Assembly: GCF_007004665.1 (NCBI RefSeq)
Contig: NZ_ML660068.1
Location: 1-57,005, forward strand
DNA length: 57,005 nt
Reading direction: 5' to 3'
DNA from: Denitrobaculum tricleocarpae
Lineage (GTDB): Bacteria > Pseudomonadota > Alphaproteobacteria > Kiloniellales > Kiloniellaceae
Shown here: piece by piece, positions 1 through 17,374 of the stretch
Numbering within the stretch: position 1 is the first letter of the stretch
How the letters are laid out: each line of letters opens with the position of its first letter
Made by a program: the position numbers and the translations under genes
The notes under the pieces: model-generated
What the model was told of the DNA's origin: nothing
Databases searched by the model: none
What the model saw: the letters and a program-made list of their open reading frames with translations, nothing else

Positions 1-48
1 GATCCGAGACCACTCTTCGTCGCTTAGATAAAATAACTTTCTGCCCAT
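1..48 (-). CDS. Transposase N-terminus, probable IS5-family (partial)
   Basis: Only the first 16 codons are in the window; the gene runs off the left edge. The translation, MGRKLFYLSDEEWSRI, has the pattern (aromatic-LSDEEW-x-RI) that opens many IS5-family transposases. The ATG at 46-48 (minus strand) follows a strong ribosome binding site, AGGAGG, read from 53-58 on the minus strand. The family call rests on a short match from memory, so it is moderate. Confidence 0.5.
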   Translation of the reverse strand, partial: MGRKLFYLSDEEWSRI

Positions 49-124
49 CCAAACCTCCTATCATCAGAAAGCTTGAATCACAGTTCCAATGTCACGAAAA
101 GCACCAATTGAGTACAGACCCTAG
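1..124. mobile_element. Possible IS5-type element end with CTAG target
   Basis: The transposase start is followed outward by about 70 bases of non-coding sequence ending near position 120. Read from the outside on the minus strand the end would begin GGGTCTGTACTCAATTGG, which looks like an insertion-sequence terminal repeat. CTAG at 121-124 fits the YTAR target preference of part of the IS5 family. The other end lies outside the window, so neither the inverted repeat nor the target duplication can be confirmed. Confidence 0.35.
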
Positions 125-220
125 AGCTGCCGCGACCGGTCTGCACAGGCGCAGACCGCAAACTATGACCTCCGCGGCGCAGGTATGCCGCGGGATGCAG
201 ATACAGGGAGATAGAGATCT

Positions 221-1234: not shown

Positions 1235-1259
1235 TTTGCTTTAGGCAGACATATATCCT

Positions 1260-1283
1260 CGGCCCCTGCTGATGCGGGGGCCG
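1260..1283 (+). terminator. Hairpin between dctP and dctQ
   Basis: CGGCCCC (1260-1266) pairs with GGGGCCG (1277-1283) around a 10-base loop. A weak T-rich stretch follows (ttgcctttt). Its position right after the binding-protein gene suggests partial termination or mRNA stabilisation that lets the binding protein exceed the permeases. Confidence 0.5.
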
Positions 1284-1305
1284 TTGCCTTTTCCGGGGGA
1301 CACTC

Positions 1306-3305: not shown

Positions 3306-3340
3306 CAGAGAAAGAGGCTGACGGAGAGCGGATCGGATCT

Positions 3341-3829
3341 CTATTGCCGGACAAGGCGTTCGAGCGCGACGCCTTTGCTCTCCTTGGTCGCCTGCAGCAC
3401 CACATGGCTGCTGAGGTTCAGGCCTTCCGGCCCCGTGGCCAGCAGGTGATCGCTGATCGCCGTGTAGGTCCCGATATCGCTGCAGACAAAGCGTAGCAGA
3501 TAGTCGAACTGACCGCTGACCTTGTGGCATTCCACCAGCTCGGGAATGTCCGCGACCGCGGCTTCAAAAGCACCGAACGCCCCTTTTTCGTGGCTTGAGA
3601 GGCTGACGCTGACGAAGACCGTGATCGTCTGCGCGACGCGTTCCAGGTCGATGTGGCAGCTATAGCCCTTGATGACCCCGAGCTTTTCAAGCCGCCTGAC
3701 CCGTTGCAGGCAGGGACTGGGGGACAATCCGACCCTTTCCGAGAGCGCCTGATTGGTGATCCGGCCGTCATCCTGCAGTGTCGCCAGGATCTTGAGATCG
3801 ATCCGGTCCAGTTCATTATGCTGTGTCAC
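3341..3829 (-). CDS. Lrp/AsnC-family transcriptional regulator
   Basis: 162 aa, the typical Lrp size. The N-terminal winged helix-turn-helix (about residues 9-60, ILATLQDDGRITNQALSERV... with LSPSPCLQRVRRLE) is followed by an Lrp-type ligand/oligomerisation domain (about 70-150). The start is GTG with AAGGA seven bases upstream. It is divergent from arginase, separated by 218 bp that holds a 13-bp direct repeat. This suggests it senses an amino acid such as arginine or ornithine and controls the arginase/ornithine aminotransferase genes. It could also control the convergent TRAP operon. Confidence 0.9.
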   Translation of the reverse strand: MTQHNELDRIDLKILATLQDDGRITNQALSERVGLSPSPCLQRVRRLEKLGVIKGYSCHIDLERVAQTITVFVSVSLSSHEKGAFGAFEAAVADIPELVECHKVSGQFDYLLRFVCSDIGTYTAISDHLLATGPEGLNLSSHVVLQATKESKGVALERLVRQ

Positions 3830-3841
3830 TTAGCTTCCTTC

Positions 3842-3888
3842 GCTGAATTCCCAGCGTTTGCGCCCTGGATATTCTGCTGAATTCCCAG
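3842..3888. promoter_or_regulatory. Candidate Lrp-type operator (13-bp direct repeat)
   Basis: GCTGAATTCCCAG occurs at 3842-3854 and again at 3876-3888. The start-to-start distance is 34 bp, about three helical turns, so both copies would face the same side of the DNA. The pair lies just upstream of the regulator's GTG start at 3829, in the gap to the divergent arginase gene. Multiple phased sites near the regulator's own start are typical of Lrp/AsnC autoregulation. Binding is inferred. Confidence 0.5.
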
Positions 3889-4047
3889 AATTATTGGGTT
3901 TTTAATGCTTTCGTAAGTTACAGCAGTTTCTGCTGTCATGCCAGAGCTGTCCGGCAGGTCCTACTTGCAGCCGCAATATCTTCGGCAGCACATGAGCCCG
4001 GGTATCTGGCATCCTTGACCCGGGTTTGAACGATAGGATCGCTTTTC

Positions 4048-5046
4048 ATGGTGGCTGGAACCGAAATTCTGGAGCGTGCGTCCTCTGGCGGCGATGCCGC
4101 GGTCGATACCTCGAGTACTTTATCGGCGGATATGTCGAATCAGATCGGATTGATCGGTGTCCCGACCGACGTCGGGGCCGGTGTCCGCGGTGCCTGCCTT
4201 GGGCCCGAAGCCCTCAGGATCGCGGGCCTTGCCAAGGCCCTGACGGGGCTTGGCCATAAGGTCTCGGATCTGGGCGACCTCGACGGGCCCCCCAATCCTG
4301 ACGAGCAGCCGGGTAACGGCTGCCGCAATCTGCGTGAGGTCAGCACCTGGTGCCGTCTCCTGCGCGACCGCGTGACCGATGTTGCCGGTCAGGGCATGAC
4401 ACCTGTCGTGCTGGGCGGCGATCATTGCATCGCCATGGGCTCTATTGCCGGCATCGCCAAGCACTGCAGCGCCTCTGGGCAGCCGCTCTATGTGCTTTGG
4501 TTCGACGCCCATACGGATTTCAACACGCCCCTGTCGTCGCCCTCCGGCAATGTCCACGGCATGCCGATCGCCGCGCTCTGCGGGCGCATCAAGGACTCCG
4601 AGTTCGATCTGGGTGTCCCGACCCCTGTCGTCGACCCCAGCAGGATCAACCTCTTTGGGATCCGTTCCGTCGATCATATCGAGAAGGCGACCCTGGTCGA
4701 CAGTGGTTTGAAGGTCTTCGATATGCGCGCGATCGACGAGCGCAGCACCTTCACCATCATGCGCGAGATCCTGGACGAGGTGACGGCGGCCAAGGGGCAT
4801 CTGCACGTCAGCCTGGACGTGGACTTCCTGGATCCCAGCATTGCGCCGGGCGTCGGCACGACCGTTCCGGGCGGCGTCACCTACCGCGAGGCGCATCTTT
4901 GCATGGAGATGATTGCGGAGTCCGGGCTGATGGGGTCGCTGGATCTGGTCGAGCTCAATCCGCTGCTCGACGAAAAAAACAAGTCCGCCGAACTGCTGGT
5001 CGATCTGACCGGCAGTCTCTTCGGCAAGGCGACCCTGCACCGCTGA
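4048..5046 (+). CDS. rocF: Arginase
   Basis: Hydrolyses L-arginine to L-ornithine and urea, a cytosolic Mn2+ enzyme. The three ureohydrolase metal motifs are present: GGDHC (about residue 126), DAHTDFN (about 153) and SLDVDFLDP (about 255). The C-terminal ELNPLLDEKN is also typical. The ORF gives 332 aa; arginases are about 300-310, so the first 28 residues are extra. An in-frame ATG at 4132 (MSNQIGLIGVPTD) may be the true start, but it lacks a good ribosome site, whereas 4048 has AGGA upstream. The ornithine aminotransferase gene follows 35 bases later, giving arginine to ornithine to glutamate semialdehyde. Confidence 0.93.
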   Translation: MVAGTEILERASSGGDAAVDTSSTLSADMSNQIGLIGVPTDVGAGVRGACLGPEALRIAGLAKALTGLGHKVSDLGDLDGPPNPDEQPGNGCRNLREVSTWCRLLRDRVTDVAGQGMTPVVLGGDHCIAMGSIAGIAKHCSASGQPLYVLWFDAHTDFNTPLSSPSGNVHGMPIAALCGRIKDSEFDLGVPTPVVDPSRINLFGIRSVDHIEKATLVDSGLKVFDMRAIDERSTFTIMREILDEVTAAKGHLHVSLDVDFLDPSIAPGVGTTVPGGVTYREAHLCMEMIAESGLMGSLDLVELNPLLDEKNKSAELLVDLTGSLFGKATLHR

Positions 5047-5081
5047 AGTGCGGCGCGCCGGCAAATCTTTGGAGATGAGAG

Positions 5082-6290
5082 ATGGAACTGAATCCCAAAC
5101 AACTGGTCGCGGTCGAGGCGGAACTTGGCGCCCATAACTATAAGCCGCTCGACGTGGTGCTCTCCCGGGGCGAGGGGATCTGGGTCTGGGATGCGGACGG
5201 CAAGCGCTACATGGATTGCCTTTCGGCCTATTCAGCGGTCAATCAGGGACACTGCCATCCGAAGATCCGGGAAGCGCTGATCGAGCAGTCCGGACGTCTT
5301 GCCCTGACCTCGCGCGCCTTTCACAACGATCAATTGGCGCTCTTCTATCAGGAGGTCTGCGAGCTCACCAATTCTCACAAGGTCCTGCCCATGAACAGTG
5401 GGGCCGAAGCGGTGGAGAGCGCCATCAAGGCGGTGCGCAAGTGGGGCTATGAGGTCAAGCGTGTTCCGGACAATCAGGCCGAAATCATCGTCTGCAGCGA
5501 CAATTTCCATGGACGGACCATCACCATCGTCGGCTTCAGCACCGACCCGGCGGCGCGCAACCACTTCGGGCCCTTCGCGCCCGGCTTCAAGGTGGTTCCC
5601 TTCGGCGATGCTGAGGCCCTGGAAGCGGCTATCACACCCACCACCGTCGGCTTCCTGGTCGAACCGATCCAGGGCGAGGCCGGCGTGATCATTCCGCCCG
5701 ACGGTTATCTGAAGCAGGTCCGCGAGATCTGCAGCCGGGAAAACGTCGTCCTGATCCTGGATGAGATCCAAACCGGCCTGGGCCGGACAGGCAAACTCCT
5801 GGCCGAGGAACACGAGGAGATCGAGGCTGATCTGACCCTGGTCGGCAAGGCGCTTTCCGGTGGTTTTTATCCGGTTTCCGCCGTGCTTTCGAACTCGGAA
5901 GTGCTGGGTGTGCTCAAACCGGGTCAGCATGGCTCGACCTTCGGCGGCAATCCCATGGCCTGCGCCGTGGCCCGGGCGGCCCTGCGCGTGCTGATCGAAG
6001 AGGGTATGATCGAAAACGCCGAGAAGATGGGAGACCATTTCCTCGACGGCCTGAAGAGCATCCGCAACAACCTGGTCAAGGAAGTGCGGGGCCGCGGCCT
6101 GATGCTTGCGGTCGAATTCCATCGTGAAGCAGGGGGCGCCCGGCAGTACTGCGAAGCGCTCCGCGAATCAGGAATCCTCTGCAAGGAAACCCATGTCGAT
6201 ACCATCCGCTTCGCGCCGCCGCTGATCATCGACAAAGACCAGATCGATTGGGCCCTGGAGCGCATCGCGCCGGTCCTGCGCATGCAATAA
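5082..6290 (+). CDS. rocD: Ornithine aminotransferase
   Basis: Class III PLP aminotransferase of 402 aa converting ornithine plus 2-oxoglutarate to glutamate-5-semialdehyde plus glutamate. [13 protein letters not shown] (about residue 105) and [14 protein letters not shown] (about 225) are PLP-binding blocks. K256 in [17 protein letters not shown] is the Schiff-base lysine. GGAGATGAGAG precedes the ATG. It directly follows arginase, as in other arginase-pathway operons, which makes ornithine the likely substrate rather than another omega-amino acid. Confidence 0.93.
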
Positions 6291-6308
6291 CCGCTATGGC
6301 GCGGAGGT

Positions 6309-6884
6309 TCAGTCCTCGTCGCCGGTAAAGCGGATAATGCGGTGAAAATAGCGGCGCAGCGCCTCGTTGCGTTCCGGCCGGGCGTTGGTGGAAAAGATCA
6401 CCAGGTCCGCATGACGCTCCATCCGCTCGAGCAGGTAGGAGACCTCTTGGTTGGCGTAGCGGTCATGGCTGTCCTTGACCTCTGTGCGTTTGCCGAAGAG
6501 CGCATCCGCTTCGTCGAAGAACAGCAGCCAGTTCTCGGCCTCGGCCCGTTCAAGCAGTTTGCTGAGGTTTTTTTCCGTTTCGCCGATATAGCGTGAGATC
6601 AGATTGGGCAGATCGACATAGACCACGCGGCGGCCGTTCTTTTGACCGAGCAGCAGCGCCGCAAGCGTCTTGCCGGTGCCCGGCGGGCCGGAAAAGAGAA
6701 CGCGGTAGCTCTCCGCTTTGCCCGCACGGCGCAGGCTTTGCTCTTCCTTGCGGAGTTCCGCCAGTTCGACTTTGATCTTCTTGAAAGCGCCGACGTCCTG
6801 CCAGTTCAATTCGGTTGTCAGTTCTCGCGCCGGAAAGGATCTTCCGAAAGCCTTGAGATCATTCGCCTGGATTCTTGGCGTCAT
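6309..6884 (-). CDS. Small orphan AAA+ ATPase
   Basis: 191 aa containing a single AAA+ core. Walker A GPPGTGKT is at 66-73, Walker B LLFFDEAD at about 120-127, sensor-1 asparagine in STNARP at 167 and a paired arginine (RR 177-178) as likely arginine finger. The protein stops at RIIRFTGDED, where family members normally continue into the C-terminal helical lid, and it has no N-terminal substrate-binding domain. It resembles the ATPase module of CDC48-like proteins associated with contractile-injection or phage-tail loci, but no such genes are nearby. It may be a minimal ATPase acting with a partner elsewhere, or a remnant. Its partner and function are unknown. Confidence 0.75.
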   Translation of the reverse strand: MTPRIQANDLKAFGRSFPARELTTELNWQDVGAFKKIKVELAELRKEEQSLRRAGKAESYRVLFSGPPGTGKTLAALLLGQKNGRRVVYVDLPNLISRYIGETEKNLSKLLERAEAENWLLFFDEADALFGKRTEVKDSHDRYANQEVSYLLERMERHADLVIFSTNARPERNEALRRYFHRIIRFTGDED

Positions 6885-7045
6885 ATCACGTCCCCTCTCT
6901 CCATCAAGCGCCGAATGTCTTTTCTCCCCGACTCATCCGCGTCCGAATGCACGTATTCTCGCATGATTGGCCGCGAGTATAGCTCATTTTTTGAGAGATC
7001 CACCAAATTGCGATCTCGGTGCGGTCCGGCGCTGTGTGAGAAAAA

Positions 7046-7072
7046 GAGCCGCCGGATGTGGAATCCGGCGGC
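7046..7072 (-). terminator. Rho-independent terminator of the second TRAP operon
   Basis: GCCGCCGGAT (7048-7057) pairs perfectly with ATCCGGCGGC (7063-7072) around a 5-base loop. On the minus strand the stem is followed by CTCTTTTTC. It lies 31 bases past the stop of the TRAP binding protein, so it ends the minus-strand cluster. Confidence 0.8.
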
Positions 7073-7102
7073 CCATTGAGGTTTTCGACAGGGGTATGAC
7101 CG

Positions 7103-8176
7103 CTATTTCGCGGCTTCTTCGAACTCGGCCGTCAACTTGGCTTCACAGTCGTTGACTGCGGTCTGCGCGGCATTAATCCATTCATTGCCGAAGTTCTTCG
7201 CATACCAGTCCCAGACCGGCTGCGCGGCTTTCTGGAAGGCCGCTTTCTCCTCGGCGGTCGGTGAGTAGATCGTGCCTCCGGCTTCCTTGAAGGTCTCGAA
7301 GGCATCCACGCCCTTGCGCATGGGCAGGACACGGGCCGTCTGCTTCAGGAACTGGAAGCCGTCATAGACGATCCGCTGATGTTCCGGGCTCAAGTCCTGG
7401 AACGCGTCTTCGTTCATCCACCAGAGCGCGGCCATATAGGCGTGGCCATCGAGCGAGATGTACTTGAGGTGATCCTGGAACTTCATGTTCACGATGTCGG
7501 TGATGCCGTTCTTGGTGCCCTCCACGACGCCGGTGCCCAGCGAGGTGTAAACCTCCGGCCAGGCGATCGGGGTCGGGTTGCCGCCCAGGGACTTCACCAG
7601 TTCGATCTGAATATCGGCGCCGATGGTGCGCAGCTTCAGACCGTCGACGTCATCAGGTGTTTTGACCTGTTTGCTGGTGGTCGCGATGTTGCGCCAGCCG
7701 CCGGTGTTGGAGACCACCATCAGTCTGGCCGCACCGACGTCCTGCAGCACCGCGGCTCGGATTTTGCTGACCAGCGGGCCGTCAAAGACGCATTCCGCCA
7801 CCCGGTCGTTGGGCAGCAGATAGGGCAGATCCAGGAACTGGGCAGGCGGGTACCAGCCCGCGAGACCGCCGTTGGTGGTGATGTAAATCTCCAGCCGGCC
7901 ATCCAGCAGAGCTTCCGAGCATTCGTCCGCGTTGGAGCAGAAGCGCCCCGACGGGAAGATCTCGACCTCGATCGCGCCGTTGGAGGCACTCTCGACGTAG
8001 TTCTTAAGCACCAGAGAGCCGTCATAGTCCTCGTCGTCCGGTGAGCCGAGAAACGCGATTTTCAAAGTCGTATCCGCGGCCATCGCCGGGGTGGTATTGA
8101 TCGCTATCCCACTCAGGGCCGCTGCCCCGAAGCCGAAGGCGGCCGTGGTGGCGGCTAGTTTTTTCCAGGTCATCAT
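7103..8176 (-). CDS. dctP: TRAP transporter solute-binding protein (DctP family)
   Basis: 357 aa periplasmic binding protein with a signal peptide of about 33 residues (ends TTPAMA-ADTT). Conserved DctP features include VDGLKLRTIGADIQIE near residue 180, which carries the substrate-binding arginine. GGGAGGTAA precedes the ATG; the second codon is also ATG (8173). It is the last gene of the minus-strand cluster, after large and small permeases, and is followed by a strong terminator. If the cluster handles an anionic sugar (see findings), this protein is the likely receptor, since TRAP receptors usually bind organic anions. Confidence 0.9.
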   Translation of the reverse strand: MMTWKKLAATTAAFGFGAAALSGIAINTTPAMAADTTLKIAFLGSPDDEDYDGSLVLKNYVESASNGAIEVEIFPSGRFCSNADECSEALLDGRLEIYITTNGGLAGWYPPAQFLDLPYLLPNDRVAECVFDGPLVSKIRAAVLQDVGAARLMVVSNTGGWRNIATTSKQVKTPDDVDGLKLRTIGADIQIELVKSLGGNPTPIAWPEVYTSLGTGVVEGTKNGITDIVNMKFQDHLKYISLDGHAYMAALWWMNEDAFQDLSPEHQRIVYDGFQFLKQTARVLPMRKGVDAFETFKEAGGTIYSPTAEEKAAFQKAAQPVWDWYAKNFGNEWINAAQTAVNDCEAKLTAEFEEAAK

Positions 8177-8198
8177 CCCATTTACCTCCCTATTCTTG

Positions 8199-9503
8199 TC
8201 ATTGGATCAAACCAAGGGCCCGAGGCAGAAACAGCGTCAGGTCCTCCACATAGGTGATCAGGAGGATCACCAGCACCTCTACCGCCAGGAACGGCAGCAT
8301 GGATTTTACGATCAGCTCGACGCGCACCTTGGCGACCGACGAGGCGACGAAGAGCACCAGCCCCATCGGCGGTGTCGCCAGGCCGACAGTGACGTTCACG
8401 CACATGATGATGGCGAAGTGGACCGGATCGAGTCCCAGGTCCGTCACGAAGACGCTGCCCAGGATCGGGCCCAGGATCAGGATCGCCGGACCGGCATCCA
8501 GGAACATGCCCACGATGAAGAGCATGATGTTGCAGAGAAATAGCAGCAGCAGCGGGTTCTCCGTCAGCGACAGCAGAAAATCCGACAGCATCTGCGCCGC
8601 GCCGACCTGGTCCGCGACCCAGGAGAAGGATTTGGAAGCCCCGATCAGCAAAAGAATGATGCCCGATGCCACCGCCGCGCGCAGGAAGACCCGGGGCACT
8701 TCGCGCAGCTTCAGGGTGCGCAACACCACCAGGGCAACGAAGAAGGCATAGAAGGCCGCGACACCCGCCGCCTCGGTGGGTGTGAACCAGCCCGAGAGGA
8801 TGCCGCCCAGAAGGATAACCGGCGTCAGCAGCGGCCAGAAGGAAGCGCCCGCGGCCCGCGCGACTTCTCGGGCGGGGGCGCGCTCGTTGGCGACGGGAAA
8901 ATCATGCTTGATGGCGAGAAAATAGGTCACGGCCATCAGCCCGCCGCCGATCATCAGACCGGGAATGAGGCCGGCCGCAAAGAGCGCCGCCGGGCTGACT
9001 CCCATGATAAAGGCGTAGATGATCATGATGCCGCTGGGCGGAATGATCGGTCCGATCACTGACGAGGCCGCCGTCACCGCCGCTGCGAACTGACGGCTGT
9101 AACCGTTTTTCTCCATGGCGGGGATCAGCATCGATCCCAGAGCCGAAGTGTCGGCTACCGCCGAGCCTGACAAGCCGGCGAAAAGAATGGACGACAGGAT
9201 ATTGACATGCGCCAGCCCGCCGCGCACATGGCCGATCAGGGTCTGCGAGAAGTGCACCAGCCGTGCGGTGATCCCGCCTGTGTTCATGATCTCGCCGGCA
9301 AGAATGAACATGGGCAATGCCATCAGCGGCACCGACGACATGCCGGAGAAAAGCTGGCTGAGCAGAGAATTGAGATCGCGCGGTTTAAAGTCGTTGCCCA
9401 GGTCGTTCACCACCGTGACCCCCGAGGCGATCAGCAGCCCGAAGACGACCGGCACACTGACGGCCAGCAGGAGCAGGAAAGTCCAGAGAAAAGCCATTGG
9501 CAT
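8199..9503 (-). CDS. dctM: TRAP transporter large permease (DctM family)
   Basis: 434 aa polytopic membrane protein of normal DctM length. Typical segments are SGSAVADTSALGSMLIPAM near residue 115-130, GPIIPPSGIMIIYAF near residue 150 and GLATPPMGLVLFVASSVA near residue 370. It lies 14 bases after the small permease and 22 bases before the binding protein, so the genes are co-transcribed. It forms the transport channel with the neighbouring small permease. Confidence 0.92.
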   Translation of the reverse strand: MPMAFLWTFLLLLAVSVPVVFGLLIASGVTVVNDLGNDFKPRDLNSLLSQLFSGMSSVPLMALPMFILAGEIMNTGGITARLVHFSQTLIGHVRGGLAHVNILSSILFAGLSGSAVADTSALGSMLIPAMEKNGYSRQFAAAVTAASSVIGPIIPPSGIMIIYAFIMGVSPAALFAAGLIPGLMIGGGLMAVTYFLAIKHDFPVANERAPAREVARAAGASFWPLLTPVILLGGILSGWFTPTEAAGVAAFYAFFVALVVLRTLKLREVPRVFLRAAVASGIILLLIGASKSFSWVADQVGAAQMLSDFLLSLTENPLLLLFLCNIMLFIVGMFLDAGPAILILGPILGSVFVTDLGLDPVHFAIIMCVNVTVGLATPPMGLVLFVASSVAKVRVELIVKSMLPFLAVEVLVILLITYVEDLTLFLPRALGLIQ

Positions 9504-9517
9504 AACGCTATATTCCC

Positions 9518-10150
9518 CTATTCCGCCCGGTTGGCTTCGACTTCCTCGAAGCTCCGCACAGGTTTGACCTGTTCGTTAAAGGGATCGATCAGTCCGAGGA
9601 TGTAACGGAAGATCAGCTCTATGTTGGCCAGCAGCAGCAAGGTCATGCAGATCGGCATGGAGATGTAGACCGCGCGCCAGGGAATGTTGATAACCGGGAT
9701 CATCACCCGGGCCTTGAAGGGCCGGATCGAGGCCAGATCAAGTCCCAACAGCCAGTCCAGGAAGATCTCGGTCGGCATGAAGCGGATACCGACTTTGCGC
9801 AGGGTGAGGTCCAGACCAATCAGGAAGAGCAGCATGAGGATAAGGTGGATGACCAGCAGATGCAGCCGGGCGATGCGCCCGCCGAGCATGTCATGGAAAA
9901 AATCAAGGGACACGTTAGCTGCCCGGCGATAAGCGATCGGCGCGATGACGAAGGCGGAGACCGGCAACATCACGATGAAGGCTTTTTCCGTCCAGGGCAT
10001 GGAAATGCCGGTTTTGCGGCCAAAGACCGAGAGGACCACCGTGATCAGCATGATGGCGATGCCGATCCAGGCAATGGGCTTCAGGACCTCCTCGGCGGCC
10101 CGGTTGACCCGTCGGAGGCCACTGATCACCAGCAGCAAAAGGCTTGTCAT
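9518..10150 (-). CDS. dctQ: TRAP transporter small permease (DctQ family)
   Basis: 210 aa with four hydrophobic segments (about residues 20-45, 55-75, 95-120 and 145-175). The start is placed at the ATG 10148-10150 because GGGAGG sits just upstream; a longer reading from an upstream TTG would run through that ribosome site. It precedes the large permease in a Q-M-P operon and follows the SDR gene by about 65 bases. Confidence 0.87.
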   Translation of the reverse strand: MTSLLLLVISGLRRVNRAAEEVLKPIAWIGIAIMLITVVLSVFGRKTGISMPWTEKAFIVMLPVSAFVIAPIAYRRAANVSLDFFHDMLGGRIARLHLLVIHLILMLLFLIGLDLTLRKVGIRFMPTEIFLDWLLGLDLASIRPFKARVMIPVINIPWRAVYISMPICMTLLLLANIELIFRYILGLIDPFNEQVKPVRSFEEVEANRAE

Positions 10151-10216
10151 TTTTCCTCCCAATCGGATCGCCGGGCGGCGCTTTTTTCCGCGCCTTGCAT
10201 TCCGGTCGATCCCGCG

Positions 10217-10951
10217 TCAGTCGTTTACCTGTCCACCATCCACATTGATTGTTTGTCCCGTCACGTAGCTCGCGTCCTTGCTGAGCAGAAATTTGATCAC
10301 GGATGCAACTTCCTCGGGTTCGCCGAAGCGGCCCAGCGGGATTTCCCGCAGCAGCATGTCGCGCCGCTTTTCGATCACCTTGGCGGGCATCGAAGTTTTG
10401 ATGATTCCGGGCGAAACCGCGTTGACGGTGGCCTTCGTCTTGAAACGCCGGGCGAGGGCGCGGGTCAGTCCGACCAGCCCGCCCTTGGCGGCGGTGTAGG
10501 CGACGTGATCGACAGCCCCCCGGCGGAAGGCGAGCGAGGAAACGAAGACCACCCGGCCGATTTCATCGGCGGGAAAGCGGTTCGTCATGGCGGTTGCCAG
10601 GTCGTAGCCATTGGTCAGATTGTTGGCCAGGGCACGATCCCAGATTCCGTGGTCACGCCCGAGTTGGGGATCTTCCTCGAAGACGCCGGCCAGATGGACA
10701 AAACCGTATATCGGGTCTGAGATGGCGGCGAGTGCGGCTTCGTAGTCGGCGGGTGACGCGGTATCGCGTGCGTCAGCCAGAACCTGTTGCTCTGTCGAGC
10801 TTTGAAGTTCGGACGCTAATTCCATGACGCTGCTGCCGGGCCGGTCGAGCAGCAAGAGACTGTACCCTTTGCCAAGGAAGATCGGACAACAGGCCCGTCC
10901 AATACCACCGGCGGCACCCGTCACGACAATCCATCTGGTGGCAGTATTCAT
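10217..10951 (-). CDS. Short-chain dehydrogenase/reductase
   Basis: 244 aa classical SDR. The NAD(P) loop is TGAAGGIG (about residues 12-19). The catalytic serine is in VVFVSSLAFRRG and the Tyr-Lys pair in YTAAKGG. The C-terminal VTGQTINVDGGQ is standard. The start overlaps the stop of the GH31 gene in ATGA (10948-10951), so it is translationally coupled to the sugar cluster. It could oxidise the free sugar or reduce/oxidise the aldehyde released by the aldolase. In sulfoglycolysis a sulfolactaldehyde reductase or dehydrogenase would occupy this step, though the known ones mostly belong to other families. Confidence 0.85.
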   Translation of the reverse strand: MNTATRWIVVTGAAGGIGRACCPIFLGKGYSLLLLDRPGSSVMELASELQSSTEQQVLADARDTASPADYEAALAAISDPIYGFVHLAGVFEEDPQLGRDHGIWDRALANNLTNGYDLATAMTNRFPADEIGRVVFVSSLAFRRGAVDHVAYTAAKGGLVGLTRALARRFKTKATVNAVSPGIIKTSMPAKVIEKRRDMLLREIPLGRFGEPEEVASVIKFLLSKDASYVTGQTINVDGGQVND

Positions 10952-13017
10952 CCGTCGCCGCCCTCCGGTCCATAAAGCCGCAGCGTTTCAATGCGGTTCG
11001 AGTCATTGAGTGCACCGGTATGCTGGACCACTGGCCCGAGCGGCAGGCGCGCGCCTTCGCGCACGAAAAGCACGGCCTTGCGCAGCGACACGTCGCGCTC
11101 CAGCACCTGACCGCCGGTCACGGGCTCTTCGGTCCAGAAGTCGTACCAGGTGCCCTTGGGCAGGTAGAATCGGACCCTGCCGCCGGGCTGCAACACCGGA
11201 GCCACGAAAAGATCGTCACCGAGCATATACTGCTCATCGAAGGCCCAGGCCGCCGGATCCTCCGGGCAGGCGACCGCCATGGCGCGCATCACCGGCAGTC
11301 CCATCTCCGCCTGATCCGCGCAATCCTCCAGATAAGGGATCAGGCGGTATCGCAATTCGAGCCAGTCGCGGACGATGACTTCGACGTCCTGGCCAAAGGC
11401 CCAGGGCTCGCGCTCGCCGATTCCATGCATCCGGCAGTGGGATGAGAGCACACCGGCCTGAACCCAGCGCACGTAGAGCTCCGGGTCGGGATCGCCGCCA
11501 TAAAAGCCGCCGATGTCATGACTGTAGTAGGGACAGCCGCTCATACCCCAGGACTGGCCGCCCCGGATGCTTGCCGCCAGGCCTTCCCAGCTGACTTCCG
11601 GGTCGCCGCCCCACTGGATCGGTGCGGTTTGACTGCCGCTCCAACCGGACCGCGCCCAGACCATGGCGTCAGCGCCGAAGTGGTCTTGAGTCGCTTCGTA
11701 AACGCAGCGGTTATAGAGCAGGGGATAGACATTATGCAGGCGGCGGCCATCGTCGCCATTGGCCGCGTGCGCATCCCTGGGCACCTGTTCGCCGAAGTCG
11801 CTCTTGATCACATCGATCCCGCTGTCGAAGAGCCCCTGGTGCGCTTTCGCATACCAGGCATAGGCATCGGGATGAGTGAAATCGACAAGGCCGCTCGGTG
11901 GCAAGGGTGTGAGAACCGTGCCGAAGGGGGCCGGATCCCAATGGTAGACGTAAGGCGCGCCATCTTCGTCTTTCAGCAGCCAGTCTCTCGAGGCCAATTC
12001 GGCGAAGAGGGGATGTTTCTGTGAGATTAGCGGGTATTCCCAGACGCAAACCCGCAGTTTCAGGTCCTTGATCTTTTGGGTGAAGGCCTTGGGATCGGGA
12101 TAGCGGTCGGCGTCCCACTCAAAGGCGAAACGCGTAGAGGTGTCGAGCCATGCCCGTCCGTCCAGCGTAAAGACATCGCAGGGCATGCGCTTTTCACGCA
12201 GGGTCTGCGCTGTCGATAGGGCCTCGTCCGCAGTCTTGTAAAAGGCTTTGCTCAGCCAGAGGCCGTAGCTCCAGCGCGGCGGCTTGGCGGGACGTCCTGT
12301 AAGAGCGGTATAGCGTTCGAGAATTTCCGTCGGTCCCTCGGCGGCGATCAGGAAGAGATCCAGTTCGCTGCTCTCGACCTCCAGGCCGTAAGTCCGGTGG
12401 GACCATTGGGGGTAGCCGACACCATGCCGCACGGTGGTCGGCGTGTTGACGAAGAGCCCCCAGCCCGCAGGGCTCCAGGCAAAGGGCGTATTCTTGTAGG
12501 AGATCTCGGCATTCACCCCGAGCGCGTCTTCGTTCTGGCTGACCACCAACTGACCGCGCCGGTTCAACGGACCGTACTTCTCACCCAGACCGAAAACCGG
12601 ATGGCCGCTATCCAGATTGAATGCGGCGAAGAGCCCCCGCTCGGTTTCGGCGAAAGGCGGCAGCCTGAAGGAACGCCGAAAGTGCCGGTCGGTGGTCGAA
12701 TGGAAGATGACCTTCCCGGCTTTGCGCAGAATAAAACAAAGGGGATCGTTCAGCAGATCCAGCTCCAGGTCGCCGGCCGCAAGACAATAGCCGCCTTCGA
12801 CCTTGCCTGTTTTGAGGGCGAGCGCCGGGCCGAGGTCGGCGAGGATCGGATAGTCGGCCCCGTCGGGTTCGCCGAGCCGGATGCGGACGATGCCGGTCAG
12901 CGGAAAGGAAACCTCCAGGGGCTTGCCGCCGACCGAGAAGCGCGCCACGTGCTCATCCGAATCGATCAGGGCGAGGCCTGAAAGCGGGGAGAGGGCATGG
13001 GGCGTTAGCTCGGGCAC
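10948..13017 (-). CDS. Glycoside hydrolase family 31 (alpha-glycosidase)
   Basis: 689 aa GH31 enzyme with N-terminal beta-sandwich, (beta/alpha)8 barrel and C-terminal beta domains. The nucleophile is D407 in IKSDFGEQVP and the acid/base D472 in QWGGDPEVSW, followed by HDIGGFYGG. GTG start with GAAGAGA upstream. The barrel reads closer to alpha-xylosidase YicI (YGLWLSKAF, WEYPLISQK) than to sulfoquinovosidase YihQ. By eye, of the YihQ sulfonate pocket only the Arg301 equivalent (STRFAFEW) remains, while Gln288, Trp304 and Tyr508 correspond to Leu, Phe and Phe. It probably releases the aldose that enters the isomerase-kinase-aldolase route of the same operon. The lack of a signal peptide puts it in the cytosol. 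Confidence 0.88.
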   Translation of the reverse strand: MPELTPHALSPLSGLALIDSDEHVARFSVGGKPLEVSFPLTGIVRIRLGEPDGADYPILADLGPALALKTGKVEGGYCLAAGDLELDLLNDPLCFILRKAGKVIFHSTTDRHFRRSFRLPPFAETERGLFAAFNLDSGHPVFGLGEKYGPLNRRGQLVVSQNEDALGVNAEISYKNTPFAWSPAGWGLFVNTPTTVRHGVGYPQWSHRTYGLEVESSELDLFLIAAEGPTEILERYTALTGRPAKPPRWSYGLWLSKAFYKTADEALSTAQTLREKRMPCDVFTLDGRAWLDTSTRFAFEWDADRYPDPKAFTQKIKDLKLRVCVWEYPLISQKHPLFAELASRDWLLKDEDGAPYVYHWDPAPFGTVLTPLPPSGLVDFTHPDAYAWYAKAHQGLFDSGIDVIKSDFGEQVPRDAHAANGDDGRRLHNVYPLLYNRCVYEATQDHFGADAMVWARSGWSGSQTAPIQWGGDPEVSWEGLAASIRGGQSWGMSGCPYYSHDIGGFYGGDPDPELYVRWVQAGVLSSHCRMHGIGEREPWAFGQDVEVIVRDWLELRYRLIPYLEDCADQAEMGLPVMRAMAVACPEDPAAWAFDEQYMLGDDLFVAPVLQPGGRVRFYLPKGTWYDFWTEEPVTGGQVLERDVSLRKAVLFVREGARLPLGPVVQHTGALNDSNRIETLRLYGPEGGDG

Positions 13018-13028
13018 AGCTTATCTCT

Positions 13029-14390
13029 TCAGGTCAGCTCGATGACGGGCAGGTCGAGCATGGCGGCCAGCCGCCGCAGGGCGGGGCGGTGCTCGCCGTA
13101 AACCAGTCCGGTGTGGTGTTCCAGCCCTTCGCGCATGATGCGCTCCAGCACCTCGCCTGCCGGTTTGTCGAAGCGCACGACGCCGGAGGTGCCGGAGAAG
13201 CTCAGCGGTGCCCGCAGGATCTCCGCGCCGCCCAGCACCAGGCGGATCTCGTTCTTGGCCTGGGTCAGGCGGGCCAGAGTTACCCTCCCGGGCTTCAGGG
13301 CGAATTCGTTCAGCAGGGGCAGTTTGCGGTTCGAGTGGATCGCCGGACCGATCGGGCCTTCCGGATCTGCCATGGAAATAGGCGCCTGCCCGCAGTGCCA
13401 GAAAACCGCTGTGTCGTCCTCGACGTTGACGTCGACCAGATCGGTGTTGAAGGCGGGCTCTCCGGCGGTCCACTGCAGGACCAGGGAACTCAGCGCGCCG
13501 AAGACATCGGCTTCGCAGCCACAGGGCGTGCCGTCCTGATTCATGAAAGCCATGGGGCCGCAGGCCGCGCAACCGAAGTCGGTGAAGAACTCTGGCCAGC
13601 AGCGCACGGCGAGGGCCTGCAGGTTTTCTTCGTCGGCGAGACCGCGCAGCGCGACGTAGACCTTCATGCTTTTCTGCAGGGAGTCCTGATCCAGATCGTC
13701 GAGCGAACCCAGGTCACCCGCGGCCCGTGCGCGAACCGCATCGGCTTTGGCGTCGTCGACAGCCGCCGCCGAGGCAATGAAGCCCCCGATCGGCAAAGTC
13801 TGGGTTTCCACGCCGAAGCGGGATTTCAGTTCCGCCGTATCGTAGGAACAGGTGTCGAAGCCCGCCGGATGTTCGCCGACCACGCCGATCCGGGTCTGGG
13901 TCAGACGCCGTTTCACATAGCCGGCGCGGGCGAGCGCCATGATCTCCTTCAGGGCCTCCGGAGAGTCCGCTTCACGGTGAACGTAATCGAAAGACTGTCC
14001 CGCTTTGCCGAGCGCGTGGGCGGCGAGATTGATACCGCAGAAGCCGTTCAGGCGCAGCCGCCCGCCGCTGCGGGGTTCCGGGAAGGACCAGAGGACCAGG
14101 GGCGCATCGACGGATTTCGCCAGCTCGACCGTCATGGTGGCGTCGGTGAAGGTCACCTGCAGTACGAGCAGCAGATCGAGCGGCTTCTCGGTCAGCGCGC
14201 CGAGGTTCGAGCGCATGGCCTCCGCGTCGAACTGAAGTGCGGTAGAGCCCACGATATCCGCATCCAGGCCTTCAAGCGCCGCCATGGCCGTGGCCAGTAG
14301 CGATTCCGCGTAGGGCACATCGAAGGTCGGTCTGCCGATGGCGACGACACCGATGGAGAGTCTGCGGCTGCCGAGGTTCGCGTTGATCAT
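13029..14390 (-). CDS. L-fucose/L-arabinose-isomerase-like protein
   Basis: 453 aa. The start is set at the ATG 14388-14390 because it overlaps the aldolase stop in ATGA; the reading frame is open further upstream but lies within the aldolase gene. Family marks include AVRCWPEFFTDFGCAACGPM, followed by GTPCGCEADVFGAL (about residues 275-310), which contains the metal-binding Glu/Asp, and a late HCGQAP. Proteins of this fold interconvert aldoses and ketoses. Sulfoquinovose isomerases of the sulfo-TAL and sulfo-EMP2 routes are, as I recall, members of this broad family. Here it would convert the liberated aldose to the ketose for the PfkB-type kinase. Confidence 0.75.
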   Translation of the reverse strand: MINANLGSRRLSIGVVAIGRPTFDVPYAESLLATAMAALEGLDADIVGSTALQFDAEAMRSNLGALTEKPLDLLLVLQVTFTDATMTVELAKSVDAPLVLWSFPEPRSGGRLRLNGFCGINLAAHALGKAGQSFDYVHREADSPEALKEIMALARAGYVKRRLTQTRIGVVGEHPAGFDTCSYDTAELKSRFGVETQTLPIGGFIASAAAVDDAKADAVRARAAGDLGSLDDLDQDSLQKSMKVYVALRGLADEENLQALAVRCWPEFFTDFGCAACGPMAFMNQDGTPCGCEADVFGALSSLVLQWTAGEPAFNTDLVDVNVEDDTAVFWHCGQAPISMADPEGPIGPAIHSNRKLPLLNEFALKPGRVTLARLTQAKNEIRLVLGGAEILRAPLSFSGTSGVVRFDKPAGEVLERIMREGLEHHTGLVYGEHRPALRRLAAMLDLPVIELT

Positions 14391-15433
14391 GCCGCGGTTC
14401 CATCCCCATACATGCGCGGAAATTCTGCCCCGGCCCCGGCGATGCGGTAGCCTTCCGCGAAAGCCGGATGGGCCTGCCAGGGTGTGGCCTCGGCGTCGGT
14501 GAGTTGGTTGATCGATTCCATGTAAGCCACGCTTTCGCTGGTCAGCGCGCGGTCGACGGCGTTCATATCGGGATAGTTCTGCATGGCCTGCCACCAGATG
14601 GCGCGTCCGGCCAGAAAGCCGTTGGCACCGGCGTTATAGGCATAGCGCAAAACGTTTTTGAAAGAGCTTTGGTTGGCGCCGGCGCTGAGCATCACCCAGG
14701 GGCGTGTGGTTGCCTCGCCCAAAGCGTCGAACCATTTCTGGCATTCGGCGGCATCGGGCGACCCCGGGTCGGGCACCTGATCCGCCGGGATCGGGCTTTC
14801 CAGTTTGAAAATATCGACCCCGAAGCGGGGATCGGCGAAGGTGCGCACGGAGTCCACGACATTCTGCGGCCGTTTGAATTGATGCTCGCGGTAGTCTGTC
14901 GTCTGATCCTCCTCGCCGGGCAGCGGGTAGACCAGCATCTCGAAGAGAAAACAGATGTCGTGGCGGGCGCAGGCCTGCCCGACCTCTTCGACGTATCTCT
15001 GTTGATGCGCGCAGATTTCGGGGTCCGCGTCGGGCCGGTACCAGGCCAGAACCTTCACGGCGTCCGCACCCATGCGCTTGATCTTTTCCACGCTCCAGTC
15101 GGTGATGCTGGCTGACTTGCGGCCGCCGCCGGTCTCTTCGAAGCGATGATCTTCCAGGGTGACGATCAGGCCCTGTCCCGGATGAACGTGCCGCACCGCA
15201 TCCGAGTAGGCCCAGATGGGGTCCAGGAGCATGGCCGAGGCCTTGGGCGCCAGATTGCGCGTCAGGGCTTCCTTGACGGCGGAGACCTCCTCGTCCGGTG
15301 CGGACTCACCGCCTTTTTGCGCGGTGATCAGGTTCATGATCGGGGGCCGCTGATCGACGGCCACCATCTTGAAGCGCCCCTGCGTGTCGGCCAGACGGCG
15401 CAGAGACCAGAGTTTGCCTGCGGAAATTTCCAT
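14387..15433 (-). CDS. Class I aldolase, LacD/YihT type
   Basis: 348 aa TIM-barrel aldolase related to tagatose-1,6-bisphosphate aldolase LacD and sulfofructose-1-phosphate aldolase YihT. Landmarks: FKMVAVDQRPP near residue 22, KVLAWYRPDAD with K127, FEMLVYPL near 165, and the likely Schiff-base K210 in VDIFKLESP; WVMLSAGAN and GFLAGRAIWW close the barrel. These lysines sit where LacD has its catalytic pair. The ATG at 15431-15433 was chosen over an upstream TTG. It would split the ketose phosphate into dihydroxyacetone phosphate plus a three-carbon aldehyde (sulfolactaldehyde if the substrate is sulfofructose phosphate). Confidence 0.85.
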   Translation of the reverse strand: MEISAGKLWSLRRLADTQGRFKMVAVDQRPPIMNLITAQKGGESAPDEEVSAVKEALTRNLAPKASAMLLDPIWAYSDAVRHVHPGQGLIVTLEDHRFEETGGGRKSASITDWSVEKIKRMGADAVKVLAWYRPDADPEICAHQQRYVEEVGQACARHDICFLFEMLVYPLPGEEDQTTDYREHQFKRPQNVVDSVRTFADPRFGVDIFKLESPIPADQVPDPGSPDAAECQKWFDALGEATTRPWVMLSAGANQSSFKNVLRYAYNAGANGFLAGRAIWWQAMQNYPDMNAVDRALTSESVAYMESINQLTDAEATPWQAHPAFAEGYRIAGAGAEFPRMYGDGTAA

Positions 15434-15675
15434 GTTGCTTGTCGCGACTCCCAACGCGCTATGACTGCTTCGGCAGTTTTGCTTTGTTATCGGTTGACCC
15501 TGTCTCGGCTGTTACCGTTTCGGCTCTTGGTGCCTGGGCAGGTTGTCCGATTTTCAAATTATACCGCTGTTTTGGAGTATAATGCTCGAATATGGACAAA
15601 AAATTCCATAAGAATTTTCATATTCCAACATTTTTTGGATCGATTTTCAGAAACGCGGCGAAAATCGCCCCTGAT
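15434..15675 (-). promoter_or_regulatory. AT-rich promoter region of the aldolase operon
   Basis: About 240 bp between the DeoR gene and the aldolase start, markedly AT-rich against its surroundings. A TATAAT lies on the minus strand at 15558-15563. GAATATG (15588-15594) is repeated inverted as CATATTC (15619-15625), a candidate DeoR operator. The assignment of exact promoter elements is weak. Confidence 0.4.
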
Positions 15676-16443
15676 TCAGGCCGAATCCGTTGTCATGATT
15701 TCGACGCTGCAGTTGGCGAGAACCTTCTGCATTGCGGGTGGGGGCATACGATCGGTGAAGACGGCGGTGACATCCGACATGCTACCGATCTTGACCGAAG
15801 CGGTGCGCCCGAACTTGGTGTGGTCGGCAGCGACAATCACGTGGCGGGCGTTCCGCATCATGGTTTGGGCCACCATGGTTTCGTTATAGTCGTAATCCAG
15901 CAGGGTGCCGTCGCTGTCGATGGCGCCGACGCTGACGACCGCGAAGTCAACGCGGAATTGCTCCACAAAGTCCAGCGCCGCCGTCCCGACGATACCGCCG
16001 TTGTGGTGGCGGATGCTGCCGCCTGCCACCAGGGTGTCGATGTTCGGCCGGGTATGCAGCACCGTCGCAGCGTGCAGGTTGTTGGTGATGACCCGCAGGC
16101 CCTCGCGGTCGACCAGCTTGCGGGCGACCATCTCCATGGTGGTGCCGATGGTCATGAAGATCGAGCTGTTATCCGGCAGGTAGTCCGCGACCGCGCGGCC
16201 GATGGCTTCCTTTTCCTCCAGGTGCGAGATTTTTCGCAGCGCATAGTCGGTATTGATCACGCTGGAGGGCAGGCCGACGCCGCCGTGGTGCCGGACCAGG
16301 AGTTCCGCGTCGCAGAGCTCGGCCACATCCCGGCGCACCGTCTGGGTGGAAACCCCGAACTCTTTGGCCAGTGTTTCCACGATCCCGACGCCGCGCCGGC
16401 GCACGTGGTCTAAAATCGCTTCGCGGCGTTCGCTGCTTTTCAT
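15676..16443 (-). CDS. DeoR/GlpR-family transcriptional repressor
   Basis: 255 aa. The N-terminal DeoR helix-turn-helix (REAILDHVRRRGVG...FGVSTQTVRRDVAEL, about residues 7-42) is followed by a sugar-phosphate-sensing domain (GTTMEMVARKL, then AVVSVGAIDSDGTLLDYDYNE). It is encoded after the kinase and before the aldolase operon, all on the same strand. By analogy with YihW/CsqR, a DeoR-type regulator of sulfoglycolysis, it probably represses this sugar cluster until a phosphorylated intermediate binds. Confidence 0.9.
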   Translation of the reverse strand: MKSSERREAILDHVRRRGVGIVETLAKEFGVSTQTVRRDVAELCDAELLVRHHGGVGLPSSVINTDYALRKISHLEEKEAIGRAVADYLPDNSSIFMTIGTTMEMVARKLVDREGLRVITNNLHAATVLHTRPNIDTLVAGGSIRHHNGGIVGTAALDFVEQFRVDFAVVSVGAIDSDGTLLDYDYNETMVAQTMMRNARHVIVAADHTKFGRTASVKIGSMSDVTAVFTDRMPPPAMQKVLANCSVEIMTTDSA

Positions 16444-16471
16444 TACGTTTTCTCTCTCACGTCTTCAGACC

Positions 16472-17374
16472 TCAGTTCTCCTGCAGGAATTTCTCCAGCT
16501 CCGCGCGGCTGGGTGTTCCGGCGCGTCCGCCGGGCCGGGTGCACTTCAGGGCTGCGGCGGCGGTTGCGAAGCGCATTGCCTCGGCAAGAGGCTGCCGTTC
16601 CCCCAGGGCGAGAGCAAAGGCGCCGTGAAAGACATCGCCCGCGCCCAGGGTGTCGACGACCGTGACGGGAAAGGCGGGCTGATGGCCGCTGTTGCCCTCA
16701 CCGTCGATCCAGAAGCAGCCCTCTGCGCCTGCTGTCACGGCAACAATTCCCTGGGTCTTGCTGCGCGCGGCCGCCAGTCCTGCCCGCGCATCCTCCTGGC
16801 CGGTAAAGGCCCGCAGCGCGGGTGCGGAGAAGACGACATGACTGGCGGCCTCGACCAGCGGCGCAATGGCCTCTGGCTCCGATGTCAGATCCGCATCCAG
16901 CACCGAGGTCGTTCCGCTTTGCCGCGCGGCCGCCAGGAGGCTTTTTGCGCCCTGCGGCCAACGCAGGTCGGCCAGCACGACATCCGCCGCCGCCACCTGT
17001 TCCAGGGGAAGCCAGGCGGGGTCGCCGTCGAGGCCGGGGTCGCCGGGTGTCACGATCATGCGCTCGCCCGCTGCGTCGATCAGAACGACGGCAAGGCCCG
17101 AGTTTCTATTTGGGAAACGGCGGACATTCGCCGTGTCGACGCCATAGGATTGAAGGTCGGCGAGGATTCTCCGTCCGACGTCATCCTCGCCCACGCGGCT
17201 CCAGAGCGCCGTTTCCGCACCCAGCCGTGCGGCCGCCGCGGCAGCGGTCGCCGCCGGGCCGCCGCCGACTTCGGTAAAGGACTTGGCGAAGTTCTTGCCG
17301 CCGCCGCTCGGTAAGTGTTCAAGCGTAAAAATCTGGTCCCAAACCGCCAGCCCCAGGCAGATCACTTTCGTCAT
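16472..17374 (-). CDS. PfkB-family sugar kinase, YihV (sulfofructose kinase)-like
   Basis: 300 aa ribokinase-fold kinase. It aligns with E. coli YihV without gaps over the first 140 residues as I recall that sequence: EVGGGPAATAA at 35-45, DVVLADLRW at 131-139, and near the C-terminus VVDTLGAGDVFHGA (catalytic Asp, anion hole) and AALKCTRPGGRAG. Of the three residues reported to bind the sulfonate in YihV (Lys27, Asn109, Arg138), K27 and R138 are kept and position 109 is Thr. It would phosphorylate the ketose made by the isomerase, ready for the aldolase. It heads the minus-strand cluster with the DeoR gene 28 bases downstream. Confidence 0.85.
   Translation of the reverse strand: MTKVICLGLAVWDQIFTLEHLPSGGGKNFAKSFTEVGGGPAATAAAAAARLGAETALWSRVGEDDVGRRILADLQSYGVDTANVRRFPNRNSGLAVVLIDAAGERMIVTPGDPGLDGDPAWLPLEQVAAADVVLADLRWPQGAKSLLAAARQSGTTSVLDADLTSEPEAIAPLVEAASHVVFSAPALRAFTGQEDARAGLAAARSKTQGIVAVTAGAEGCFWIDGEGNSGHQPAFPVTVVDTLGAGDVFHGAFALALGERQPLAEAMRFATAAAALKCTRPGGRAGTPSRAELEKFLQEN

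Follow-up and report, generated by a model that had tools for sequence, protein, structure and literature searches.

Results

A nine-gene cluster joins sulfoglycolysis-like enzymes to a TRAP transporter

The DNA analysed here, referred to as the window, is a stretch of 57,005 nucleotides that lies on contig 17 of the Pelagibius-like genome of Denitrobaculum tricleocarpae (6.4 Mb in 34 contigs). Positions 7103-17374 of the window carry nine collinear genes on the minus strand, encoding in order a PfkB-family kinase, a DeoR-family regulator, a class I aldolase, an isomerase, a glycoside hydrolase of family GH31, a short-chain dehydrogenase/reductase (SDR) and the Q, M and P subunits of a tripartite ATP-independent periplasmic (TRAP) transporter (Table 1). 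Gene order, homology and co-occurrence with other genes indicate that the cluster most probably directs the import of sulfoquinovose (SQ), or of its glyceride, and its breakdown by a hybrid sulfoglycolytic Embden-Meyerhof-Parnas (sulfo-EMP) pathway.

Gene families were assigned with Pfam and NCBIfam models, and these confirmed the gene families, positions and common strand given in a first-pass annotation made from the sequence letters; the overlaps that it had described are four-nucleotide ones at two of the eight junctions (aldolase/isomerase and GH31/SDR), and the widest intergenic gap, 221 nt, separates the regulator from the aldolase. Judged by the isomerase, the closest kin are a pair of uncultured Kiloniellaceae bacteria and Pelagibius sp. 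Alg239-R121 (96, 93 and 87% identity). In these three, represented by loci L001-L003, all nine genes recur in the same order (identity 71-89% for the kinase, 87-96% for the isomerase and 82-95% for the GH31 protein), and the cluster is therefore not a chance run of genes. The SDR is 85-95% identical in these three relatives and elsewhere finds matches of only about 27-30%; an SDR occupies this slot in the window and L001-L003 only, and in none of the other clusters compared.

Table 1. Genes of the cluster, listed in reading order, with positions in the window
Predicted product	Position	Strand	Family and remarks
PfkB-family kinase, predicted 6-deoxy-6-sulfofructose kinase (YihV-like)	16472-17374	-	PF00294
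DeoR-family regulator, predicted CsqR-type sulfosugar sensor	15676-16443	-	DeoRC and HTH_DeoR domains
Class I LacD/YihT-type aldolase, predicted sulfofructose-1-phosphate aldolase	14387-15454	-	PF01791 (DeoC/LacD); TTG start, possible ATG at 15433
SqvD/SftI-type isomerase, predicted sulfoquinovose-sulfofructose isomerase	13029-14390	-	Fucose_iso_C, PF02952
GH31 glycosidase of a YicI-like group, predicted alpha-sulfoquinovosidase	10948-13017	-	GTG start
SDR	10217-10951	-	PF13561
DctQ, TRAP small membrane subunit	9518-10150	-	PF04290; ATG at 10150; query sequence 9518-10147, one codon less than the gene
DctM, TRAP large membrane subunit	8199-9503	-	PF06808, E 2.5e-115
DctP, TRAP substrate-binding protein, predicted binder of a sulfosugar or sulfosugar glycoside	7103-8176	-	PF03480

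The core enzymes combine two sulfoglycolytic gene sets

The kinase is 48.5% identical to Escherichia coli YihV over 297 aa, and its best match in the PDB is the sulfofructose kinase 7ag6 (286 bits), followed by an uncharacterised Sugar kinase, 2rbc (213 bits), and ribokinase (115 bits). Two YihV residues that we take to serve the sulfonate, Lys27 and Arg138, are each conserved in 13 of 14 aligned kinases, a set that counts both the window protein and YihV. The regulator shares 47.6% identity over 250 aa with E. coli CsqR, its top NCBIfam model being PRK10906 at 268 bits, below the cut-off of 331. The aldolase is only 27.5% identical to YihT and lies nearer to LacD-type models, passing the tagatose 1,6-diphosphate aldolase model PRK12858 with 360 bits against a cut-off of 184; YihT Lys193, presumably the Schiff-base lysine, aligns with its Lys217.

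The sole NCBIfam match of the isomerase is the sulfoquinovose isomerase SftI (E 2e-89), with a score below the cut-off. The protein belongs to PF02952 and not to the YihS type (PF07221), and no YihS match was found among the nine cluster proteins at E 1e-3. Sequence searches found no solved structure for it up to E 1; its AlphaFold model (pLDDT 92) resembles L-arabinose and L-fucose isomerases, with TM-scores by query of 0.72-0.84.

In sulfo-EMP2 pathways the kinase is of the PfkA type (PF00365) and the aldolase of class II (PF01116) (PMC9594981). The first-pass annotation had called the cluster sulfo-EMP2-like, which may hold for the isomerase and fails for the kinase (PF00294) and the aldolase (PF01791), and these two families rule out membership of sulfo-EMP2. 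A YihV-type PfkB kinase and a PF01791 aldolase are features of the E. coli type, which itself has a YihS-type isomerase that the cluster lacks. As predicted from its protein families, the pathway is thus a hybrid sulfo-EMP, whose three core enzymes (isomerase, kinase and aldolase) come partly from the EMP and partly from the EMP2 set.

Known and proposed sulfoquinovosidase types replace one another in sister loci

Sulfoquinovosidase (SQase) genes are regarded as diagnostic of SQ clusters and are of two types, GH31 YihQ and GH188, one GH31 subfamily having been the only SQase class before GH188 (PMC10755693). The window cluster was compared with sister loci in a set of 36, made up of 28 found by scanning species genomes with the isomerase, five from a sample of 289 genomes of the class (L075, L079, L080, L081 and L087) and three plasmid records (L083-L085). 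A GH31 gene like that of the window is present in 11 loci, a GH188 homologue in 11 and a YihQ homologue in one, while 13 have no visible SQase. No locus has two types (0/36), and the chance of finding no overlap between GH31 and GH188 would be 0.007 if the loci were independent. They are not, since L001-L003 are near kin and the pairs L006/L026 and L008/L019 each derive from a single genome bin; moreover, L006, L019, L022 and L026 are short or break off close to the isomerase, and both the count of loci with no visible SQase and that of types found together depend on flank length.

The L079 GH188 protein matches the SqgA structures 8QC3 (E 9e-115) and 8QC2 (E 8e-113), the other GH188 calls resting on homology to this protein, and GH188 homologues accompany isomerase, kinase and TRAP genes in L004 and L079-L081. 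Such an exchange is also seen in two Anaerolineae loci, L023 and L028, which have in common a ROK protein (87% identity), TauE (92%), an M24 protein (79%) and transaldolase genes: L023 carries a YicI-like GH31 gene and ATP-binding cassette (ABC) transporter genes, and L028 has YihQ and a major facilitator superfamily (MFS) gene in their stead. No GH188 gene was found in the D. tricleocarpae genome, in a search of seven genomes that included no positive control.

In Zymomonas mobilis ZM4 plasmid pZZM402 (L083, 128-11361), genes for a class II aldolase, an epimerase, an SqvD-type isomerase (49% identical to that of the window), a GH188 homologue (45% to that of L079), two MFS proteins, a TonB receptor and a succinate-semialdehyde dehydrogenase (SSADH) stand in a row. 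These genes, among which no kinase is annotated, probably form a sulfoquinovose cluster in a model organism that produces ethanol. The Candidatus Chlorohelix allophototropha plasmid (L085, 1440-16002) encodes an SqvD-type isomerase (343 bits to SftI), a homologue of diphosphate-dependent phosphofructokinase, nitrite/sulfite reductase, siroheme genes and an SSADH, perhaps a diphosphate-driven sulfo-EMP with sulfite assimilation.

The GH31 protein belongs to a two-arginine group apart from YicI and YihQ

The GH31 protein shares 39.4% identity with the xylosidase YicI and 26.5% with the sulfoquinovosidase YihQ, and family models name it an alpha-xylosidase; it is not of the known YihQ type and lies on the YicI side. 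Its Asp407 and Asp472, presumably catalytic, align with Asp residues of both YicI and YihQ. Where YicI has Cys307-Phe308, which we assume to line the xylose-binding subsite, the window protein has Gly-Arg-Ala, with R288 within that stretch and a second arginine, R296, nearby. Both arginines, near an active-site strand, are invariant in the window protein and nine relatives (10/10), and in all 17 group members with a readable stretch once six proteins from the class sample and one from Deinococcus peraridilitoris are included, giving the group motif DGRAW...R. The arginines are missing in YicI, L082a, L082b and L086, L069 and L072 have an arginine near the second position and no GRAW, and YihQ and L028 have other residues at these positions.

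A correspondence between R296 and YihQ Arg301, part of what we take to be the QQRWY/KERWY sulfonate motif of YihQ-type enzymes, was ruled out, as R296 aligns with YihQ Met303 in pairwise and multiple alignments and Arg301 has no aligned arginine. No residue-level match to the YihQ sulfonate site is therefore claimed, and a YihQ-type sulfoquinovosidase was rejected on the same ground and on the separation of the protein from YihQ in trees. The AlphaFold model of the GH31 protein is poor (pLDDT 66) and was not used. In a midpoint-rooted tree of 22 rows, which takes in L084 and L086 and leaves out L069, L070, L072 and L082a, the 17 two-arginine rows cluster apart from YicI and YihQ with a support of 94/100 (not starred) and in 92% of 200 bootstrap trees. 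The trunk of an earlier tree of 23 rows, which held more distant rows and omitted fragment L070, was unsettled, and isomerase-bearing rows did not form one group there (three changes).

The GRAW-type group occurs in Alphaproteobacteria, SAR324, Desulfobacterales, Chloroflexota and Deinococcus. Some members have other neighbours: an enolase-type dehydratase, an SDR and ABC genes in L076, an HpcH aldolase and an epimerase in L078, and an epimerase and an SDR in L074. These are families of sulfo-Entner-Doudoroff (sulfo-ED) or sulfofucose-ED routes (PMC12421959), and the group may therefore serve several sulfosugars, or other sugars. The L076 genes lie on a contig (G035 contig 17, also L090) that additionally holds SuyAB, SlcC and ComC homologues, possibly a sulfofucose route. 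Deinococcus peraridilitoris plasmid pDEIPE01 (L084, 394-11118) encodes an SSADH, an ABC importer, a distant SqvD-like isomerase, a PfkB kinase, a PRK12858 aldolase and a GRAW-type GH31 protein (48% identity), which would be the same scheme with ABC import. In Halomicrococcus gelatinilyticus (L086, plasmid, 1-9398) the archaeal YicI-like gene without GRAW is found beside two UxaA-family genes, ABC genes and genes for an enolase-family protein and a 2-hydroxyacid-dehydrogenase-like protein.

The window GH31 protein is proposed to be a sulfoquinovosidase of a lineage separate from both YihQ and GH188, mainly because it fills the SQase place in the sister loci, including the L023/L028 exchange. 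The best surviving alternative, although an unlikely one, is that the SQ pathway is as proposed and the GH31 protein acts elsewhere, for example on alpha-xylosides, and merely rides in the cluster. Its YicI kinship and the presence of five group members in genomes without the isomerase would suit this view, whereas the absence of any locus combining the group with GH188 or YihQ, and the exchange of the group for YihQ between L023 and L028 amid shared genes, argue that the protein belongs to the pathway.

The TRAP transporter mostly occurs together with the YihV-like kinase

A YihV-like kinase is encoded in 12 of the 36 loci and a TRAP transporter like that of the window in nine of these 12; at a strict threshold there were ten kinase-bearing loci, nine with TRAP, and two more without TRAP, L084 and L087, came to light when the search was loosened. 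Loci with transaldolase have TRAP in 0/11 cases and ABC genes in 5/11. Locus L005, from Desulfobacterales, combines TRAP, isomerase and GH31 genes, with no kinase within its 11.6 kb. TRAP-M proteins of L004, L005, L017 and L027 are 59-66% identical to the window DctM, and binding proteins of the same loci and L079 are 47-58% identical to DctP. As GH188 stands in place of GH31 in four of the nine loci with both TRAP and kinase, the transporter is tied to SQ independently of the argument about GH31.

The isethionate-binding protein IseP is the third-best solved relative of DctP, albeit a distant one (112 bits). In IseP the sulfonate of isethionate is held by Arg156, Arg177 and Asn217 (PMC11668362), and DctP keeps the residues aligned with these three. 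The cluster transporter is proposed, by gene association and these anion-binding residues, as a putative sulfosugar importer. A second TRAP system lies in the window at 221-3305 on the plus strand, adjoining arginase-like and ornithine-aminotransferase-like genes (4048-6290, named by eye); its binding protein (221-1234) is only 23% identical to the cluster DctP.

A probable sulfolactate module is encoded elsewhere in the genome

Contig C2 of the same genome holds in one run (L045, 7570-12187) a gene for a GntR regulator and four genes (8550-12187) that we take to be suyA, suyB, slcC and comC, with a SuyA of 95 aa. In NCBIfam searches SuyA and SuyB reach only the galactarate dehydratase model (36 and 128 bits), SlcC matches the phosphoglycerate dehydrogenase model and ComC scores 198 bits for L-sulfolactate dehydrogenase against a cut-off of 500. 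With no such model passed, the names therefore lean on the context of L017 (and on PMC12421959). In this SAR324 locus, about 17 kb hold suyA, suyB, suyR, kinase, aldolase, isomerase, GH31, slcC and comC genes with TRAP next door, as well as genes for a CysK-like protein, a YeiH-type exporter (below cut-off) and a GabD-like dehydrogenase; its suyB, slcC and comC products are 81, 62 and 59% identical to the D. tricleocarpae copies.

In the class sample, SuyB was found in 25 genomes at E <=1e-120 and a GH31 match at E 1e-60 in nine, of which seven were counted; G004, whose protein does not have the motif, and G122, where that stretch is unreadable, were omitted. SuyB is encoded by five of these seven genomes and by 20 of the 282 others (Fisher p 6e-5, uncorrected for kinship and genome size, which counts against the association); the figure is 6/8 if G122 is included and 4/6 (p 5e-4) once D. 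tricleocarpae itself is removed. Among further locus genomes, SuyB (E <=1e-60) is present in eight of ten, the exceptions being the genomes of L023 and of the GH188 locus L004, and in eight of the nine that have both GH31 and isomerase. Genomes of the class sample with the SqvD-type isomerase encode SuyB in three of six cases and the GH31 group in two of six (1/5 without D. tricleocarpae, p 0.10).

Sulfolactaldehyde oxidation could be provided by a GabD-like dehydrogenase encoded at C3:507488-508933, which is 68% identical to the L017 enzyme. A search for Xsc gave only below-cut-off matches, to a family that responds in all 14 controls. The first-pass annotation had left the end product open, a point largely answered by the suyA-suyB-slcC-comC run: pyruvate and sulfite are the likely end products. 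Beside the hybrid sulfo-EMP genes of L027 are found, at 2803-5145, genes for a lactate-racemase (LarA) homologue and an HIBADH-family reductase, which might racemise sulfolactate and reduce sulfolactaldehyde, respectively.

Discussion

Sulfoglycolysis coupled to TRAP import, as put forward in the first-pass annotation, is well supported by the kinship of the kinase and regulator with YihV and CsqR and by the SuyAB, SlcC, ComC and GH188 homologues of sister loci. In the proposed scheme, TRAP Q-M-P would import the anionic glycoside or free sugar, and the GH31 enzyme, presumably cytoplasmic, would release SQ. The SqvD-type isomerase would convert SQ to sulfofructose, the YihV-type kinase would form sulfofructose-1-phosphate and the class I aldolase would cleave this to dihydroxyacetone phosphate (DHAP) and sulfolactaldehyde, with the CsqR-like regulator sensing a pathway metabolite. 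Sulfolactaldehyde would then be oxidised, perhaps by the GabD-like dehydrogenase outside the cluster, and the sulfolactate epimerised by SlcC and ComC and split by SuyAB to pyruvate and sulfite.

Several observations weigh against this scheme. The kinase has Thr for YihV Asn109, at a position that is variable; the isomerase, at 300 bits, does not reach the SftI cut-off of 700; and the GH31 protein is nearer to a xylosidase than to YihQ. Five of the 17 group members (L073, L074, L076, L077 and L078) come from genomes with no isomerase match at E 1e-40, and the GH31 group is therefore not tied to this pathway. Neither a sulfolactaldehyde dehydrogenase nor a mutarotase is encoded in the cluster, and the GabD-like candidate passes the ordinary SSADH cut-off. 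Close SuyB is missing from two genomes of the GH31 group, G131 and G247, and the L023 genome, with GH31 and isomerase, has none at E 1e-60. Three kinase-bearing loci lack TRAP, two having ABC genes (L084 and L087) and one neither reference importer type (L075), and arginines like those of IseP also occur in TRAP proteins that bind carboxylates (PMC11668362).

The same chemistry might act on sulfofucose (6-deoxy-6-sulfo-D-galactose), with the GH31 enzyme and isomerase yielding sulfotagatose, the kinase sulfotagatose-1-phosphate and the aldolase DHAP and sulfolactaldehyde, although this is improbable. The aldolase does pass a tagatose 1,6-diphosphate aldolase model, enolase and SDR families known from the sulfofucose-ED route occur along with ABC genes in L076, a locus of the GH31 group, and an EMP-like sulfofucose route has been considered for Paracoccus wurundjeri, which has a sulfofucose cluster with PF00294, PF01791 and SlcC/ComC/SuyAB; in that organism, however, the kinase and aldolase were uninduced and sulfotagatose was not seen (PMC12421959). 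Sulfoquinovose is favoured further by the closeness of kinase and regulator to their SQ counterparts, YihV and CsqR, as well as by the GH188 or YihQ homologues of sister clusters.

An ordinary alpha-xyloside or isoprimeverose pathway, in which the GH31 enzyme frees xylose and the isomerase, PfkB kinase and aldolase act via a pentulose-1-phosphate, is very improbable: YicI is the nearest relative of the GH31 protein, but the xylose-subsite residues are replaced and joined by a second arginine, the kinase is YihV-like, SuyB is associated with the group and a neutral sugar is an odd cargo for TRAP. Hardly to be expected, too, is a pathway for a uronic or otherwise carboxylated hexose (e.g. one in which glucuronate gives fructuronate-1-phosphate and this in turn DHAP and tartronate semialdehyde, the SDR acting as a reductase). 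TRAP binding proteins mostly bind carboxylates, the GH31 arginines would fit a carboxylate too and an SDR is present; against this, no SDR was seen in this slot outside the window and L001-L003, and sister loci have sulfolactate lyase, sulfolactate dehydrogenase, SQase homologues and sulfite-type exporters.

For SQ breakdown by the hybrid pathway, a broader proposal follows that is rather more probable than its negation: the DGRAW...R group may be a third, YicI-side lineage of sulfosugar glycosidases, independent of YihQ, and DctP-type TRAP transporters may be the importers of SQ or its glyceride in marine bacteria that have the hybrid sulfo-EMP and release sulfite in the same cell. Sulfo-EMP, sulfo-EMP2 and hybrids have been described (PMC9594981, PMC12890257, PMC13372026), as has a tandem sulfolactate lyase end, for sulfofucose (PMC12421959). 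A search of the open-licence literature by title and abstract recognised neither a link of TRAP with sulfoquinovose nor a YicI-like sulfoquinovosidase; the papers that came up for TRAP dealt with taurine, cobalt resistance and Bilophila, and the word TRAP is absent from the reviews PMC9594981 and PMC12890257. A third SQase lineage, if true, would escape searches seeded with YihQ or SqgA, because family models call its members alpha-xylosidases and identity to YihQ is only 26%, and the TRAP importer, if true, would be a new marker of SQ uptake. The SuyAB link predicts the breakdown of SQ to sulfite within single marine cells. More organisms would then be known to recycle sulfoquinovose, the head sugar of plant and algal sulfolipid and an abundant sulfur compound.

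Compared with the E. coli sulfo-EMP (yihO-yihV, csqR), the window cluster is alike in its kinase (48.5%), regulator (47.6%), class I aldolase (27.5%) and the presence of a GH31 gene, and differs in its fucose-isomerase-like isomerase in place of YihS, its YicI-side GH31 protein and its TRAP transporter; no homologues of YihU or YihR (by sequence comparison) or of YihO or YihP (by families) are found among the nine genes. With the sulfo-EMP2 of Bacillus urumqiensis and Megamonas it would have the predicted SqvD-type isomerase in common, whereas its kinase is PfkB rather than PfkA and its aldolase class I rather than class II (PMC9594981). The sulfo-EMP/EMP2 hybrid of Vibrio mediterranei likewise mixes enzymes of both routes, but there the aldolase is swapped (SqiA) and the product is 2,3-dihydroxypropane-1-sulfonate (DHPS), whereas here the isomerase is swapped and the genome has sulfolactate lyase genes (PMC13372026). 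The sulfofucose ED/sulfolyase pathway of P. wurundjeri shares the SlcC/ComC/SuyAB module leading to pyruvate and sulfite, unlike the window in its ED-like upper route on sulfofucose and its proposed ABC importer (PMC12421959). Homologues of the NAD+-dependent GH188 sulfoquinovosidase SqgA occupy the SQase place in sister clusters, while belonging to another family with an oxidoreductive mechanism (PMC10755693). The alpha-xylosidase YicI and the sulfoquinovosidase YihQ are of the same GH31 family as the window enzyme, whose two-arginine group is separate from both. Finally, the IsePQM isethionate system shares sulfonate import by TRAP and the aligned Arg/Arg/Asn residues, but is a distant relative of the window transporter, whose predicted cargo is a C6 sulfosugar or its glycoside.

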